Shown: positions 11,483 through 54,032 of the stretch, in pieces
How positions within the stretch are numbered: position 1 is the first letter of the stretch
Layout: each line of letters starts with the position of its first letter
Source: a virus
Strand: one strand, 5' to 3'
DNA: 64,000 nucleotides
IMG/VR virus record: IMGVR_UViG_3300010354_000057
Coordinates: 1-64,000 of that record
Position numbers and translations under genes: made by a program
Notes under the pieces: generated by a model
What the model saw: the letters and a program-made list of their open reading frames with translations, nothing else
The model's database searches: none
What the model was told of the DNA's origin: nothing

Positions 11483-11520
11483 ATTTTTCCCCGAAAAAAT
11501 TTCGCGGGGAAAATTTATTT
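11483..11520 (+). terminator. Stem-loop terminator after gp33
   Basis: ATTTTCCCCG and CGGGGAAAAT form a ten-base stem around an AT-rich loop, followed by TTATTTT. The A/T-rich base of the stem would work in either direction. It separates gp33 from gp59. Confidence 0.75.
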
Positions 11521-11532
11521 TGTAGGGTTTTT

Positions 11533-12123
11533 ATGACACCATTTGACGTTTATAAGACATATCTATCACTGAAAAATCATTTTACAAAGGATAAGTATGA
11601 TTATCATAAGTATTGTGGTAAAGTAAAAGCACAATTGCAGTCTTTTTATAAAAGAAAAGACCGATATTGGTTTGAAAGATTGTCAAGACAAAAAGGTGAT
11701 AAAGAAATAATAGATTTTTTTGTTTCAAATTTTGTTTTGTGTGATGATCCACAGACTCTTTGGATTGGTGATATGATTAAAGATGGTGAAGATAGATATC
11801 TTAAATGGATAAAAAAGCAACAGTCATTGAGTTATTTTTTTCGGCAAGAGGTAGAAAGTATTTTTAATAAAAATAATTTTGATGATATGTTTGAAATAAA
11901 AAATAATTCACACCCACAATTGATTAAAGAATATTTTCAGGGTAATCTATCATTAGAAACTGTAGTAATATTAAATAAAATATTTAATTTTTTGAATACA
12001 TTTGATAGAAAAATGAAAGATCCTGTATGGGAATTTGTTTCTATGAGAATAAAAAAATATGATTGCTTTCTAAATATTGATATATTTAAGTATAAAAAAA
12101 TTTTAAAGGAGTGTGTATTATGA
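11533..12123 (+). CDS. 59: Helicase loader gp59
   Basis: Opening FDVYKTYLSLKNHFTKDKYD with KYCGKV and a central RKDRYWFERLS and WIGDM match the T4 gp59 pattern (YKLYLMIKQH.., YDVIKYNW, RRDKYFFQKLS, WIGDI). The length of 196 is near the T4 value of 217. gp59 loads the replicative helicase gp41 on gp32-coated DNA at recombination forks. It lies beside gp32 as in other T4-like phages, and its stop codon overlaps the next ATG. Confidence 0.9.
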   Translation: MTPFDVYKTYLSLKNHFTKDKYDYHKYCGKVKAQLQSFYKRKDRYWFERLSRQKGDKEIIDFFVSNFVLCDDPQTLWIGDMIKDGEDRYLKWIKKQQSLSYFFRQEVESIFNKNNFDDMFEIKNNSHPQLIKEYFQGNLSLETVVILNKIFNFLNTFDRKMKDPVWEFVSMRIKKYDCFLNIDIFKYKKILKECVL

Positions 12124-12455
12124 GTTTTTTTGAATCTGAAGTAGTTCGTTCTGAGATGGCAGAAATAACAGAACTACAGGAAGAACTTTATAACAGTGTA
12201 TTTAAATTTTACCAAATGGATGATAATGGTAAAATGGGTCATGTTAATCTCCTGCAAAGACTTTTAGATAAGCAAAAAATATTGTATACTCGCCTCTCTT
12301 TGTCTGATGATCCAGAGGCAAAAAAGATGAAAGAGAATATTTCAAAATCTGCTACAATGATGGGTCTTCCACCCAATGTTGATATGAATGTCATTTTTTC
12401 TAACATGCAGCAACTTATCGAAAAAATGAAAGAGCATATCAGCAATAACACTTGA
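12120..12455 (+). CDS. DUF1825-like cyanobacterial-type protein, 111 aa
   Basis: The ATG in the ATGA overlap with gp59 gives MSFFESEVVRSEMAEITELQ, which resembles the N-terminus of the cyanobacterial DUF1825 family (MSFFDSEIV...). The rest is helical, with KMGHVNLLQRLLDKQKILY. The family is known from cyanobacteria and their phages, with unknown function. The gene sits between gp59 and gp32, so a replication-related role is plausible but unproven. Confidence 0.7.
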   Translation: MSFFESEVVRSEMAEITELQEELYNSVFKFYQMDDNGKMGHVNLLQRLLDKQKILYTRLSLSDDPEAKKMKENISKSATMMGLPPNVDMNVIFSNMQQLIEKMKEHISNNT

Positions 12456-12480
12456 CGAACCAGGGCATCTGCATTACACT
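12452..12480 (+). promoter_or_regulatory. Sigma70-type promoter TTGACG-N17-TACACT before gp32
   Basis: TTGACG and TACACT are separated by 17 bases at the end of the preceding gene. It could drive gp32 on its own. The spacer also contains the 5' arm of the inverted repeat described next, so only read-through transcripts would carry the full structure. Confidence 0.45.
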
Positions 12481-12515
12481 AGGTAAGTGCCCACCGCAGA
12501 TGCCCTTAAGGGCAC
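12463..12515 (+). promoter_or_regulatory. Possible pseudoknot/operator in the gp32 leader
   Basis: GGGCATCTGC pairs perfectly with GCAGATGCCC (10 bp), and GTGCCC inside that loop pairs with GGGCAC just downstream (6 bp), the order expected for an H-type pseudoknot. It ends 36 bases before the gp32 ATG. In T4, gp32 represses its own mRNA by nucleating at a leader pseudoknot, so a functional analogue is plausible. The four-base loop across a 10-bp stem is tight, so partial melting or a competing GCCCTTAAGGGC hairpin is possible. Confidence 0.6.
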
Positions 12516-12551
12516 CCAAAGGCCAAATCTAACGTAATACGAGGTAATCTA

Positions 12552-13499
12552 ATGTCTTTCTCAGATCTTAAAAAGCAATCTTCTCTTGGTTCTCTGACAC
12601 AAAAACTTGTGAAAGAGATGGAGAAGATGAACACTTCTTCTGGTGGTGCTGATGAGCGTCTCTGGAAACCTGAAATGGATAAAACTGGTAACGGTTATGC
12701 AGTTATCCGTTTCCTTCCTGCTCCAGAAGGAGAAGATCTTCCTTGGGTAAAAATGTATGCTCATGGGTTCCAAGGTCCTGGTGGTTGGTATATTGAAAAC
12801 TCACTAACTACTATTGGACAAAAGGATCCAGTGTCCGAATATAATCGTGGATTGTGGAATAGTGGCAACGAAAAGGACAAAGAAACTGTTCGTAAGCAAA
12901 AGCGTAAACTGTCTTACTATTCTAACATTTATATTGTAAAGGATCCTGCTAATCCTTCTAATGAAGGTAAAGTATTCCTCTTCAAATATGGTGCAAAAAT
13001 CTTTGATAAAGTTATGGCAGCAATGCAACCTGAATTTGAAGATGAAACTCCTATCAATCCCTTTGATTTCTGGCAAGGTGCAAACTTTAAATTGAAGATC
13101 CGCAAGGTTGATGGATACTGGAATTATGATAAGTCAGAATTCGATCGTCAAGCACCTCTTCTTGAAGATGATGATGCAATGGAAGCAATTTGGAAAAAGG
13201 AATATTCTTTAACTCAATTGATTTCTCCTTCCGAATTCAAAACATACGAAGAACTTGAAAATCGTCTTAAGTATGTTCTTGGGCAGAAAGGAACTCCTCG
13301 TTATCAAGATCCAGATGAACATGCTGTAGAAGAGGATAACGATCGTGGTTCTTATACTCCTAACTTTGAAAACCGTCGCCAAACTTCAGAACTTCCTGAA
13401 AGTCTTAGTAAAGAATTGAATTCTCTTAATACTAGTTCTTATGATGAGGAAGAAGAAGATGATGCTATGAGTTACTTCCAGCGACTTGCTGAAAGTTGA
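12552..13499 (+). CDS. 32: Single-stranded DNA-binding protein gp32
   Basis: Strong colinear similarity to T4 gp32: basic N-terminus, GNGYAVIRFLPAPEGEDLPW, HGFQGPGGWYIEN, KRKLSYYSNIYIVKDPANP, NEGKVFLFKYGAKIFDK, and FWQGANFKLKIRKVDGYWNY, with an acidic C-terminal tail (SSYDEEEEDDAMSYF). At 315 residues it matches the T4 length of about 300. The region holding the zinc ligands in T4 (C-x-x-C and partners) reads NSLTTIGQKDPVSEYN here and has no cysteine, so the zinc site is absent. A candidate pseudoknot precedes the gene. Confidence 0.95.
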   Translation: MSFSDLKKQSSLGSLTQKLVKEMEKMNTSSGGADERLWKPEMDKTGNGYAVIRFLPAPEGEDLPWVKMYAHGFQGPGGWYIENSLTTIGQKDPVSEYNRGLWNSGNEKDKETVRKQKRKLSYYSNIYIVKDPANPSNEGKVFLFKYGAKIFDKVMAAMQPEFEDETPINPFDFWQGANFKLKIRKVDGYWNYDKSEFDRQAPLLEDDDAMEAIWKKEYSLTQLISPSEFKTYEELENRLKYVLGQKGTPRYQDPDEHAVEEDNDRGSYTPNFENRRQTSELPESLSKELNSLNTSSYDEEEEDDAMSYFQRLAES

Positions 13500-15842
13500 T
13501 TATTCATAAAATCTAGGGTTATCACCTTTCTTTAAGGTTCTGGACACGTATTGTTCAGAACCTTCTTTGTATGACATTAATTTTTCTATGTCATCAAATA
13601 TAATATTTAAGTACCTTGGTTTGAGTAAATAAATTTGTCTTTTTTTATTTTCTATCTTCAATTCATATTCATAGTTTGTTATTGGAATAGAACAATCGTA
13701 ACCTGGTATTTCTACATCTATACCTAATCCATTATCTCTGTATATTATTCCCTTTGTTACTTTTTTGTACCAATTAAATCCATTAAATCTCCATTTTGTC
13801 CCTTTACTTTCATAGATTTCTCCAACTTGAGGTTCGTAAATATTCCCAGGGGGGCCTATTGATACTGATGGTTGAGATGTGTATCCACTTCCTTTTTCAG
13901 TAATAACAATTTGTTCTATTCCTCCTTGGAAAATCTTTGCATATCCTTCTGCTTTAATTGGAGTTGGTGGACTTGAAAATACAATAATTGGATTAGATCT
14001 GTAGTTATAACCAGGATCTGTAACTACAACTTCAGATACCTCTCCATTGTTTACTACTGCATATCCAACTGCTGTTCTTGCTGGGATTGGTGGTTGTATT
14101 GTGACTGTCGGTGGGGATGCATATCCCCCTCCAGGATTTGTAACTACTATTTGTACAATTCTTTCAGATCCTATGACAGCATATCCTCTTGCAGTTAAAT
14201 CGATGTTATAATTATATACTTTTCTATTTTGTGCTCCAGAAATAAACAGTCTTGTTTTATCCGAATTTATATAAAGATCTGTTATTGCATTATCTTGTGT
14301 TGAAGCATTTAATTGTGTTACTAGAGTAGCACTACTTACTGTCCATGGAGATGTCAAATTAAAAACATATGCTTTGTCAGTTGTGTTACCTGCTGCATAT
14401 AATTGAGTTCCATCATCACTAAATGAAAATCCTAGAAACCAATCTTCTCCAGTTAAACTGAATAAGTTTACAACATCAACTTCTACGGCAGATTTGGTTG
14501 CAATGTTCCATGCAGTACTCAACGAATACTTTCTTATAGAATCTGGATTATTTGCATCCAAGATAAACATAAATTTTCCATTGTCCTGAAGTCTTATTCC
14601 TGATGGTGCAGGAACAGAAACACTAGTTACAAAAGTTGCTGTACTAATATTCCATGCAGTTGATAAATTGTATGATGCTACTCTATATCCAGATGCGGTT
14701 AATCCAGAAACATACATTACTCTACCATCTGGTTTAAATTCAACACCAGTAGCATATGTAAAGTTTATTCCTGTAGTTAATGTGTACGATCTTACAAAAG
14801 TTCCTGATGTAATATCCCATGGAGTAGACAAACTATACTGTTCTATTTTTCCTTGAGTATATCCTAGATCTCCATGTGCGGTGAATAAGTAAGAACCATC
14901 AGCGGAAACGTACATTCCTTCTAAACCCTCGCCAGTTGTGAATGATGATTGATTTAAGAATGCTGCATTCCCTACAATATTTTCTGGTGTTGAAAATGTA
15001 ACTGTTGGTACAAACGTATATCCTGCTCCACCACTTTGGATACCAACACTGGTGACTGATCCACCTATTCCTATAACAGCATTTACAACTGGTGGAACTG
15101 TTGGTGGTGGATTTGAAAATGTAACCGTTGGTTGTGCAGTATATCCTTTGCCTTTATTTGTAATTGTAATTATTCCTACTTCTCTTTCTCCTGGAATTAT
15201 AGATAAGTTTGCTATTGCTGTAGCAGTAACTACTTGATCTGGATTTGAGAAATTAACTCCTGGTGCAATTGTGTAACCAGTTCCAACTTCATTTATTGTT
15301 ACTGATAGGATTTGTGTATTTGAAACTGTAACAGTTCCCGTTGCATTTTTTCCAGGTATTGGTTTTGGTAGGACCACATTGGTATTAGGTTCTACCAAAT
15401 ATTGTGGGGCATTATAAAAAAGTTCATCAACTATTAGTCCAGGTTTTACAATAGTTACTTTATCTGTTGACTTATATTCTATTGTTTCGTAGTGATGTAT
15501 TCCATTATATAAGTTATCATATGATCCATATTTTGAAAGTAAATATTTGTCTAGTTGATCCTGTGATTTCGGCCATTCATCATACACATTCATGATATTA
15601 TTTGACATTAAAACAACCCAATCTAAATTTTCATCTCCATAAAATTCGTAAGCAACATTATCAGGTCTATCGTCACCAACAATATTGTATTTTTCAAAGA
15701 ACGATATATTATTAAAAATGTCCTCTCTTACCTTTGCTCTCAAAAATAAGTTTTTTACTTCAATGTAATCATTAGTAGAACGATTATCTTTTAATCTACT
15801 TACGTAGTCTAAATTTGGAACTTTTGAAAAATAGTTTGACAT
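13500..15842 (-). CDS. 53: Baseplate wedge protein gp53 with large inserted domains
   Basis: Residues 1-150 (SNYFSKVPNLDYVSRL, NISFFEKYNIVGDDRPDNVA, YGDENLDWVVLMSNNI) and the last ~100 residues (ISxxYEYELKIENKKRQIYL, then ILRTLKKGDNPRF-like end) follow T4 gp53. T4 gp53 has 196 residues; this protein has 780. The extra ~530 residues consist of several GxGYxxxPxVxFSxP beta repeats, then a beta-propeller-like stretch of about five blades ending LSTAWNI or similar (residues ~295-545), then more GxGY repeats. The inserted parts are probably exposed on the baseplate. It is the last gene of the minus-strand operon starting at gp4. Confidence 0.85.
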   Translation of the reverse strand: MSNYFSKVPNLDYVSRLKDNRSTNDYIEVKNLFLRAKVREDIFNNISFFEKYNIVGDDRPDNVAYEFYGDENLDWVVLMSNNIMNVYDEWPKSQDQLDKYLLSKYGSYDNLYNGIHHYETIEYKSTDKVTIVKPGLIVDELFYNAPQYLVEPNTNVVLPKPIPGKNATGTVTVSNTQILSVTINEVGTGYTIAPGVNFSNPDQVVTATAIANLSIIPGEREVGIITITNKGKGYTAQPTVTFSNPPPTVPPVVNAVIGIGGSVTSVGIQSGGAGYTFVPTVTFSTPENIVGNAAFLNQSSFTTGEGLEGMYVSADGSYLFTAHGDLGYTQGKIEQYSLSTPWDITSGTFVRSYTLTTGINFTYATGVEFKPDGRVMYVSGLTASGYRVASYNLSTAWNISTATFVTSVSVPAPSGIRLQDNGKFMFILDANNPDSIRKYSLSTAWNIATKSAVEVDVVNLFSLTGEDWFLGFSFSDDGTQLYAAGNTTDKAYVFNLTSPWTVSSATLVTQLNASTQDNAITDLYINSDKTRLFISGAQNRKVYNYNIDLTARGYAVIGSERIVQIVVTNPGGGYASPPTVTIQPPIPARTAVGYAVVNNGEVSEVVVTDPGYNYRSNPIIVFSSPPTPIKAEGYAKIFQGGIEQIVITEKGSGYTSQPSVSIGPPGNIYEPQVGEIYESKGTKWRFNGFNWYKKVTKGIIYRDNGLGIDVEIPGYDCSIPITNYEYELKIENKKRQIYLLKPRYLNIIFDDIEKLMSYKEGSEQYVSRTLKKGDNPRFYE

Positions 15843-53200: not shown

Positions 53201-54032
53201 ATTGGTTTTTAAATAAATCTTCTGATTCTTTTACAGACATCAGAGGATTTTTTGTATTATGAATATAATTTTTATGTGCTGGACACATACTACAAACTGA
53301 TTCTGATTTTCTATTAAAGAATTCTATAATCTGATCTTGATTGCAATTAGGATCTAAAGGTTTATATTTTAAATAAGGATCCCATTTTTCTGACAACTTA
53401 TATTTCTTTGCCATTAATGGTAAATATGCGAGAGGTGGACACTTCCAAATCATTCCTTCGTGTAATTGGAAACATGTTCCTTCCATAAAACAATTATTCC
53501 AACTTGCTTCAGCATTGTTATCTTCAAATGGTAATATATTTTCACCATATCCTTTGTAAATTTGTGTCCAATACTCGTGGGTTGTATTTACAGACACATT
53601 GATTCCAAGTTCATTTTTCCATTTTAAACATAATTTTAAATTGTCTTTTATCCTATTAATATAATCTTTTGATTTGCTGTGTATAGATAGTGATAGATTT
53701 ATATTATTATCTTTCAGTGCTTCTCCTAAGTTATTATGGGTGTGTAAGAAAAAACCATTAGTGGTTAATTTTATATAAGTATCTCCCCACATTTCTCTCG
53801 ATAGATACAGGAAATCAATCAAATTTTTATGTAATGTTGGTTCTCCACCAAGTAATATAAATTGTTTTGGTTGAATTCTATTATTCCAATTTCCCATCCA
53901 CAATCTACCTTCTTCAAGACTTATCATTCTAGAGTGTCCATGATTGGTAAAGTCAGAACAACTTTCACATGTTAAGTTGCAATTATGGGTGATGTGAAAG
54001 TCTATAATTGGTACACTTACTTTTGAATGCAT
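53184..54032 (-). CDS. Radical SAM protein, paralog B (minus strand)
   Basis: The opening PIIDFHITHNCNLTCESCSD gives C-NLT-C-ES-C, and FILLGGEPTLHKNL gives GGE. C-terminal cysteines (GTCFQLHEGMIWKCP, NCNQDQ, SVCSMC) match those of paralog A at 47.9 kb. The two share the WKCPxLAYLPxxAxKxxLSEKWDPYLKYKPL segment in near-identical form, showing recent duplication. It is transcribed away from a third radical SAM gene starting 40 bases away on the plus strand. Substrate unknown. Confidence 0.85.
   Translation of the reverse strand: MHSKVSVPIIDFHITHNCNLTCESCSDFTNHGHSRMISLEEGRLWMGNWNNRIQPKQFILLGGEPTLHKNLIDFLYLSREMWGDTYIKLTTNGFFLHTHNNLGEALKDNNINLSLSIHSKSKDYINRIKDNLKLCLKWKNELGINVSVNTTHEYWTQIYKGYGENILPFEDNNAEASWNNCFMEGTCFQLHEGMIWKCPPLAYLPLMAKKYKLSEKWDPYLKYKPLDPNCNQDQIIEFFNRKSESVCSMCPAHKNYIHNTKNPLMSVKESEDLFKNQFIKFD

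Follow-up and report, generated by a model that had tools for sequence, protein, structure and literature searches.

Sequence comparison identifies a cis-acting RNA element with the topology of a pseudoknot in the gene 32 leader of one clade of cyanophages; the evidence for this element and for its covariation is strong. We propose that the complete pseudoknot would be present only on mRNAs that read through from the upstream genes, and that it would serve on them as a translational operator for the single-stranded DNA-binding protein gp32. Taken together, these two propositions have, in our estimate, a probability of about 0.55.

The element was analyzed in a 64-kb stretch of DNA (the window), which is part of the 88,108-nt IMG/VR record IMGVR_UViG_3300010354_000057. 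This T4-like cyanophage window bears in a row on the + strand the genes for PhoH, an exonuclease, a gp59-like helicase loader, a DUF1825 protein (phrog_468; 12120–12455, with its TGA stop codon at 12453–12455) and gp32 (315 aa; 12552–13499, with its ATG at 12552). The identity of gp32 was confirmed by Pfam PF08804 and by PDB matches to the solved T4 and RB69 gp32 chains. All four arms of the element lie in the 96 nt between the DUF1825 stop codon and the gp32 ATG. A terminator-like hairpin was located 3′ of gp32 (13534–13564, + strand), and none was found between position 11500 and gp32. The stems themselves were ruled out as a terminator, since no T-tract follows them on the 3′ side.

On the + strand, stem 1 (10 bp) pairs GGGCATCTGC (12463–12472) with GCAGATGCCC (12496–12505), with an 11th pair, A12462–T12506, being possible, and stem 2 (6 bp) pairs GTGCCC (12487–12492) with GGGCAC (12510–12515). 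The arms are connected by loop 1 of 14 nt (12473–12486), loop 2 of 3 nt (ACC, 12493–12495) and loop 3 of 4 nt (TTAA, 12506–12509), which gives an element of 53 nt in total. The 36 nt between its 3′ end and the ATG (12516–12551) are weakly structured (unpaired probability 0.69) and A/C-rich with 17% U, lack UUAAA repeats, and contain a Shine-Dalgarno-like GAGG at 12541–12544. The first-pass annotation had described a perfect 10-bp pairing enclosing a GTGCCC that can pair with a downstream GGGCAC, the whole ending 36 bases before the gp32 ATG; both the arms and the distance were found exactly so in the sequence. In a geometric scan the element scored 46, whereas none of 2000 dinucleotide-shuffled versions of the leader reached 38, and only one other site on either strand of the 64-kb window scored at least 38 (53961–54010, score 39).

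A predicted sigma70-type promoter, matching the consensus at 9 of 12 positions, overlaps the element. Its −35 hexamer TTGACG (12452–12457, + strand) contains the DUF1825 stop codon, 7 nt 5′ of the stem 1 5′ arm, and its −10 hexamer TACACT (12475–12480, + strand), which follows after a 17-nt spacer, lies inside loop 1. Among 281 distinct gp32 leaders, 279 have an equivalent promoter that agrees with the consensus at 9 or more of 12 positions, and its spacer almost always measures 17 nt. In the leaders that share the arrangement of the window (class I), the 5′ arm of stem 1 sits in the promoter spacer and the −10 hexamer in loop 1, and the end of the −10 hexamer is 6 nt from stem 2 in nearly all of them, and 4–5 nt in the remaining types. 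Judging from this spacing, the first base of stem 2 (12487) would be the expected start of transcription, and the 5′ arm of stem 1 should be missing from mRNAs made from the promoter. The spacing supports the earlier suggestion that short transcripts, owing to the overlap of the promoter with this arm, would escape control. The same arm nevertheless covaries among relatives, and read-through RNAs must therefore matter.

The gp32 leaders were gathered from IMG/VR by protein searches and two DNA-pattern scans. An initial round of protein searches and the first of the pattern scans gave 187 distinct leaders, of which 38 had the arrangement of the window; in the larger set, 37 of 281 carried the full element. 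These class I leaders have a stem 1 of 9–12 bp, a stem 2 of 6–7 bp, loops 1, 2 and 3 of 12–14, 2–3 and 1–5 nt, respectively, and 35–39 nt between the element and the ATG. Most of the other gp32 leaders consist of the promoter and a short A/C-rich leader only. The element is clade-specific rather than general among cyanophages and is absent from most of their gp32 leaders, which implies that gp32 control there differs or is absent. As a separate observation, the promoter spacers of element-less leaders (e.g., L294, L524, L278, L275 and L450) contain small hairpins of differing sequence, such as GGAGGA/TCCTCC, AGGGAT/ATCCCT, GACGA/TCGTC and CAGGT/ACCTG, often with the stop codon of the upstream gene in or beside the loop. 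Of 205 distinct spacers, 37 rank with the best 5% of their own shuffles in folding, though many are related.

The arms of the 37 class I leaders reduce to ten haplotypes, including GGGCATCTGC/GCAGATGCCC, GGGCACTTGC/GCAAGTGCCC, GGGGACTTGC/GCAAGTCCCC and CGGCAATTGC/GCAATTGCC(T) for stem 1, and GTGCCC/GGGCAC, GTACTC/GGGTAC or GAGTAC, GTGTCC/GGACAC and GTATCC/GGATAC for stem 2. Pairing is kept in 98.1% of cells across the ten haplotypes. Both sides have changed at 7 of 16 pairs (four in stem 1 and three in stem 2), and not one of the 16 varies on one side only. This level of covariation was equalled by 0 of 500 shuffles, a control that leaves relatedness in, yet the changes recur in distinct combinations; sliding the partners against each other abolished the pairing. 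Since the pattern scan had fixed part of stem 1, we repeated the count on the five haplotypes obtained by protein search alone, which showed both-side changes at six pairs, a level reached by at most 1 of 500 shuffles. Pairs were counted on concatenated arms or by script, because MAFFT alignments of the whole element misplace the short arms of stem 2. Read on the gp32-sense strand, every wobble is a G-U and never an A-C, and the outermost pair of stem 1 forms a series from G-C through G-U to A-U (L172, L160 and L133), which indicates selection on the sense RNA.

The specificity of the element was assessed by scanning IMG/VR with a pattern that fixed part of stem 1 and left stem 2 free. A 6-bp stem 2 accompanied all 75 hits ahead of a gp32 start, versus 2 of 31 other hits, and one of these two proved to be a gp32 leader truncated where its contig ends. 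The compensatory changes that the first-pass annotation had proposed to look for in related cyanophages are present in both stems. The second stem accompanies the gp32 leaders with the stem 1 pattern and is missing from most cyanophage gp32 leaders. Queries from three class I leaders found no cultured isolate with a class I leader.

A second, compact gp32-leader pseudoknot (class II) was found in a different gp32 clade, in isolates that include cultured Synechococcus phages, namely RN05-S (L397), RB11-B (L392), S-B43 (L551), S-B05 (L552) and S-H68, and in 45 IMG/VR contigs (L558–L602). Its stem 1 is GGGGG/CCCCC or GGGGT/ACCCC (5–6 bp), and its stem 2 is represented by TGGTTAGGT/ACCTAACCA, CCCAGA/TCTGGG, TCCTGG/CCAGGA, TCCTAG/CTAGGA and CTCAG/CTGAG; loops 1, 2 and 3 measure 0–1, 0–2 and 6–8 nt, and 30–33 nt separate it from the ATG. 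In each of five class II leaders tested, 0 of 300 shuffles matched the pseudoknot. Pairing in stem 2 holds in 62 of 66 cells over eleven distinct arm sets, most of the leaders having been collected with a pattern that fixed stem 1 and left stem 2 free, and when the 3′ arms were reassigned between leaders, 62 of 66 was reached once in 20,000 trials. As a positive control, the scanner recovered the known T4-type pseudoknot of RB7, with a stem 1 of 4 bp, a loop 1 of 1 nt, a stem 2 of 7 bp, a loop 3 of 5 nt and 38 nt to the ATG. Class II shares with the window the gene, the promoter, the arm order and the covarying stems, and differs from it in stem and loop lengths and in gp32 clade. In class II, the start is expected at the 3′ border of the 5′ arm of stem 1, and thus the promoter-splitting layout recurs. 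We tentatively suggest, at somewhat less than even odds, that two separate gp32 clades with unrelated pseudoknots have a common layout in which the transcription start separates the 5′ arm of stem 1 from the remainder of the element (class I) or falls at the border of that arm (class II), so that the choice of promoter would decide whether the operator is carried.

Further structures were observed in the gp32 leaders of other isolates. The Kanaloavirus phages S-8S56 (L391), S-8S55 (L553) and S-8S53 (L554), together with S-H38 (L556), have a third leader structure about 40–90 nt before gp32, comprising an outer stem GYTGGG/CCCARC that begins at the expected start site and shows a compensatory T-A to C-G change, an inner GAGA-loop hairpin, and conserved CAGA and ACGTAAGA loops. 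Inverted repeats surround the promoter in S-RIM8 (L400; GGTTGAC/GTCAACC, with an inner CTATCC/GGGTAG) and in SynMITS9220M01 (L082; ACAACGGT/ACCGTTGT).

Autoregulation of gp32 is a textbook case of translational control. In T4, gp32 binds a leader pseudoknot, spreads over the unstructured leader and blocks its own translation (PMC535899, PMC3014915). Beyond the close relatives of T4, the gp32 operator has either been left unstudied or, in RB49, been reported missing, and further work was urged in a 2010 review (PMC3014915). The window element resembles the gene 32 leaders of T4, T2 and RB69 in gene, arm order and position (36 nt before the AUG, versus 38 in the T4-type RB7), and, as in T4, a weakly structured leader separates the structure from the start codon (PMC535899, PMC3014915). 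The two have no sequence similarity, and the window differs from the T4-type leader in stem 1 (10 versus 4 bp), loop 1 (14 versus 1 nt), loop 2 (3 versus 0 nt) and loop 3 (4 versus 5 nt), as well as in its G+C-rich stems, its A/C-rich rather than UUAAA-containing leader, and the promoter inside the element. The initial description of the element as having the topology and position of T4 is accordingly right for arm order and position, and does not extend to dimensions. T4-type compactness (about 28 nt, with a short loop 1 and coaxial stems) is found in class II and not in the 53-nt window element; what the latter has in common with a T4-type operator is its place in the leader of a gp32 homologue and its two interlocked stems, each with compensatory change in its pairing, which may form simultaneously. 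The STAXI motif is likewise a pseudoknot near ssb-type genes (PMC2864571), but differs from the window element in being tandemly repeated. An Rfam covariance-model search with the window element gave no family match even at an E-value of 10, and a search with the T4-type RB7 leader gave no credible family, suggesting that Rfam holds no family for the gp32 operator. Literature searches, in which coverage of subscription journals was limited, brought up no account of a structure in the gp32 leaders of cyanophages, and a prior description is possible.

By analogy with T4, the regulation could operate as follows. Read-through mRNAs from the upstream genes would hold all four arms and could form both stems, while mRNAs from the overlapping promoter would, by its spacing, have their 5′ end at stem 2 and be able to fold no more than the stem 2 hairpin. 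On the read-through mRNA, the structure would most likely provide the nucleation site of a translational operator for gp32: gp32 in excess of the available single-stranded DNA would bind it and spread over the 36-nt weakly structured leader and the ribosome-binding site, turning translation off as in T4. The choice of promoter would then decide whether a gp32 mRNA falls under gp32 control. Besides the covariation, the sense-strand wobbles, the restriction to gp32 leaders and the promoter spacing, this reading is favored by the position of the element, the order of its arms and the 36-nt stretch of weak structure, all of which fit the T4 model, by the second, unrelated covarying class with T4-like dimensions in another clade, and by the lack of a terminator-like site between position 11500 and gp32. 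It is weakened by the absence of the element from most cyanophage gp32 leaders, by the short loop 3 and by the missing UUAAA repeats of T4.

The short loop 3 bears on whether the two stems form on one molecule. In an A-form model, a complete 10-bp stem 1 in a coaxial pseudoknot needs a loop 3 of about 6–7 nt, more than the 1–5 nt of class I (4 in the window), whereas class II shows no such strain. By this measure, the loop 3 of class I seems unable to span a full stem 1 in a standard coaxial pseudoknot, and both stems may not fully coexist; either the base of stem 1 would fray as stem 2 forms, or stem 2 would dock beside stem 1, or the stems would belong to separate transcripts. The ordinary fold of the leader yields stem 1 (10–11 bp), and stem 2 appears once the RNA begins at 12487. 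A local hairpin pairing the 3′ arms of the two stems (TGCCC TTAA GGGCA) was also considered; it can form in the window and in the L172 type, is not kept in the L517 type, and was rejected as a conserved structure.

If the stems do belong to separate transcripts, the read-through mRNA would fold the stem 1 hairpin and the promoter-started mRNA a 5′ stem 2 hairpin, and the interlock would follow incidentally from the use of one sequence in two RNAs, with a role that may lie in mRNA stability or in start-site-dependent translation. Besides the short loop, this explanation draws on the start expected at the first nucleotide of stem 2, on the predicted −5.5 to −9.5 kcal/mol of the stem 2 hairpin alone in start-site transcripts, and on S-8S56 and S-H38 of another clade, in which a stem begins at the same position but no clear pseudoknot is seen. 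We regard it as rather unlikely, as independent hairpins would not require the length of loop 2 to be fixed at 3–4 nt, as it is across the arm haplotypes, and the compact class combines an ideal pseudoknot geometry with covariation in both stems.

Of the 37 class I leaders, 23 have the element 7 nt after the upstream stop codon, and operon mRNAs are often cut just after an upstream stop codon. The structure might therefore govern processing or decay of the polycistronic mRNA, as a nuclease barrier or guide, with no binding of gp32, and the T4 gene 32 mRNA is indeed cleaved at −71, adjoining its pseudoknot (PMC3014915). The restriction of the element to gp32 leaders and its near-constant 35–39 nt to the AUG fit a translational operator better, and we consider a processing role improbable. 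More doubtful still is a function at the DNA level, in which the inverted repeats around the promoter would be a repressor operator or extrude as a cruciform: the arms of stem 1 straddle the −10 region of a nearly universal promoter, but their sequences change with pairing alone kept, the G-U wobbles are confined to the sense strand, operators do not typically consist of two interleaved repeats whose loops have fixed lengths, and the compact class preserves pairing with unrelated sequences. Chance complementarity, with which the only modestly low plain folding energy of the leader (z = −2.05) would be compatible, is virtually precluded by the shuffle, covariation and context results (0/2000, 0/500 and 75/75).

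A single group of 26 rows in a gp32 tree contains most class I leaders together with two element-less leaders (L017 and L544). Two class I leaders (L179 and L182) precede gp32 proteins of a different clade, and recombination between leader and gene may account for their placement. Element-less leaders resemble class I leaders minus about 26 nt between two GTAC repeats (compare L021 with L001), with median UTR lengths of 39 and 65 nt, respectively, which makes gain or loss of the element by short duplication or deletion plausible. We also observed that the annotated gp32 starts of P-SSM2 (L393) and S-SKS1 (L395) lie 75 nt 3′ of an ATG conserved in relatives; these genes are probably annotated too short.

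Leader pseudoknots with covariation support are now given for marine cyanophages, one class of them in cultured phages with laboratory hosts. The many natural compensatory variants offer material for testing whether gp32 recognizes structure or sequence. The arrangement provides a concrete layout in which the choice of promoter could turn gp32 control on or off.
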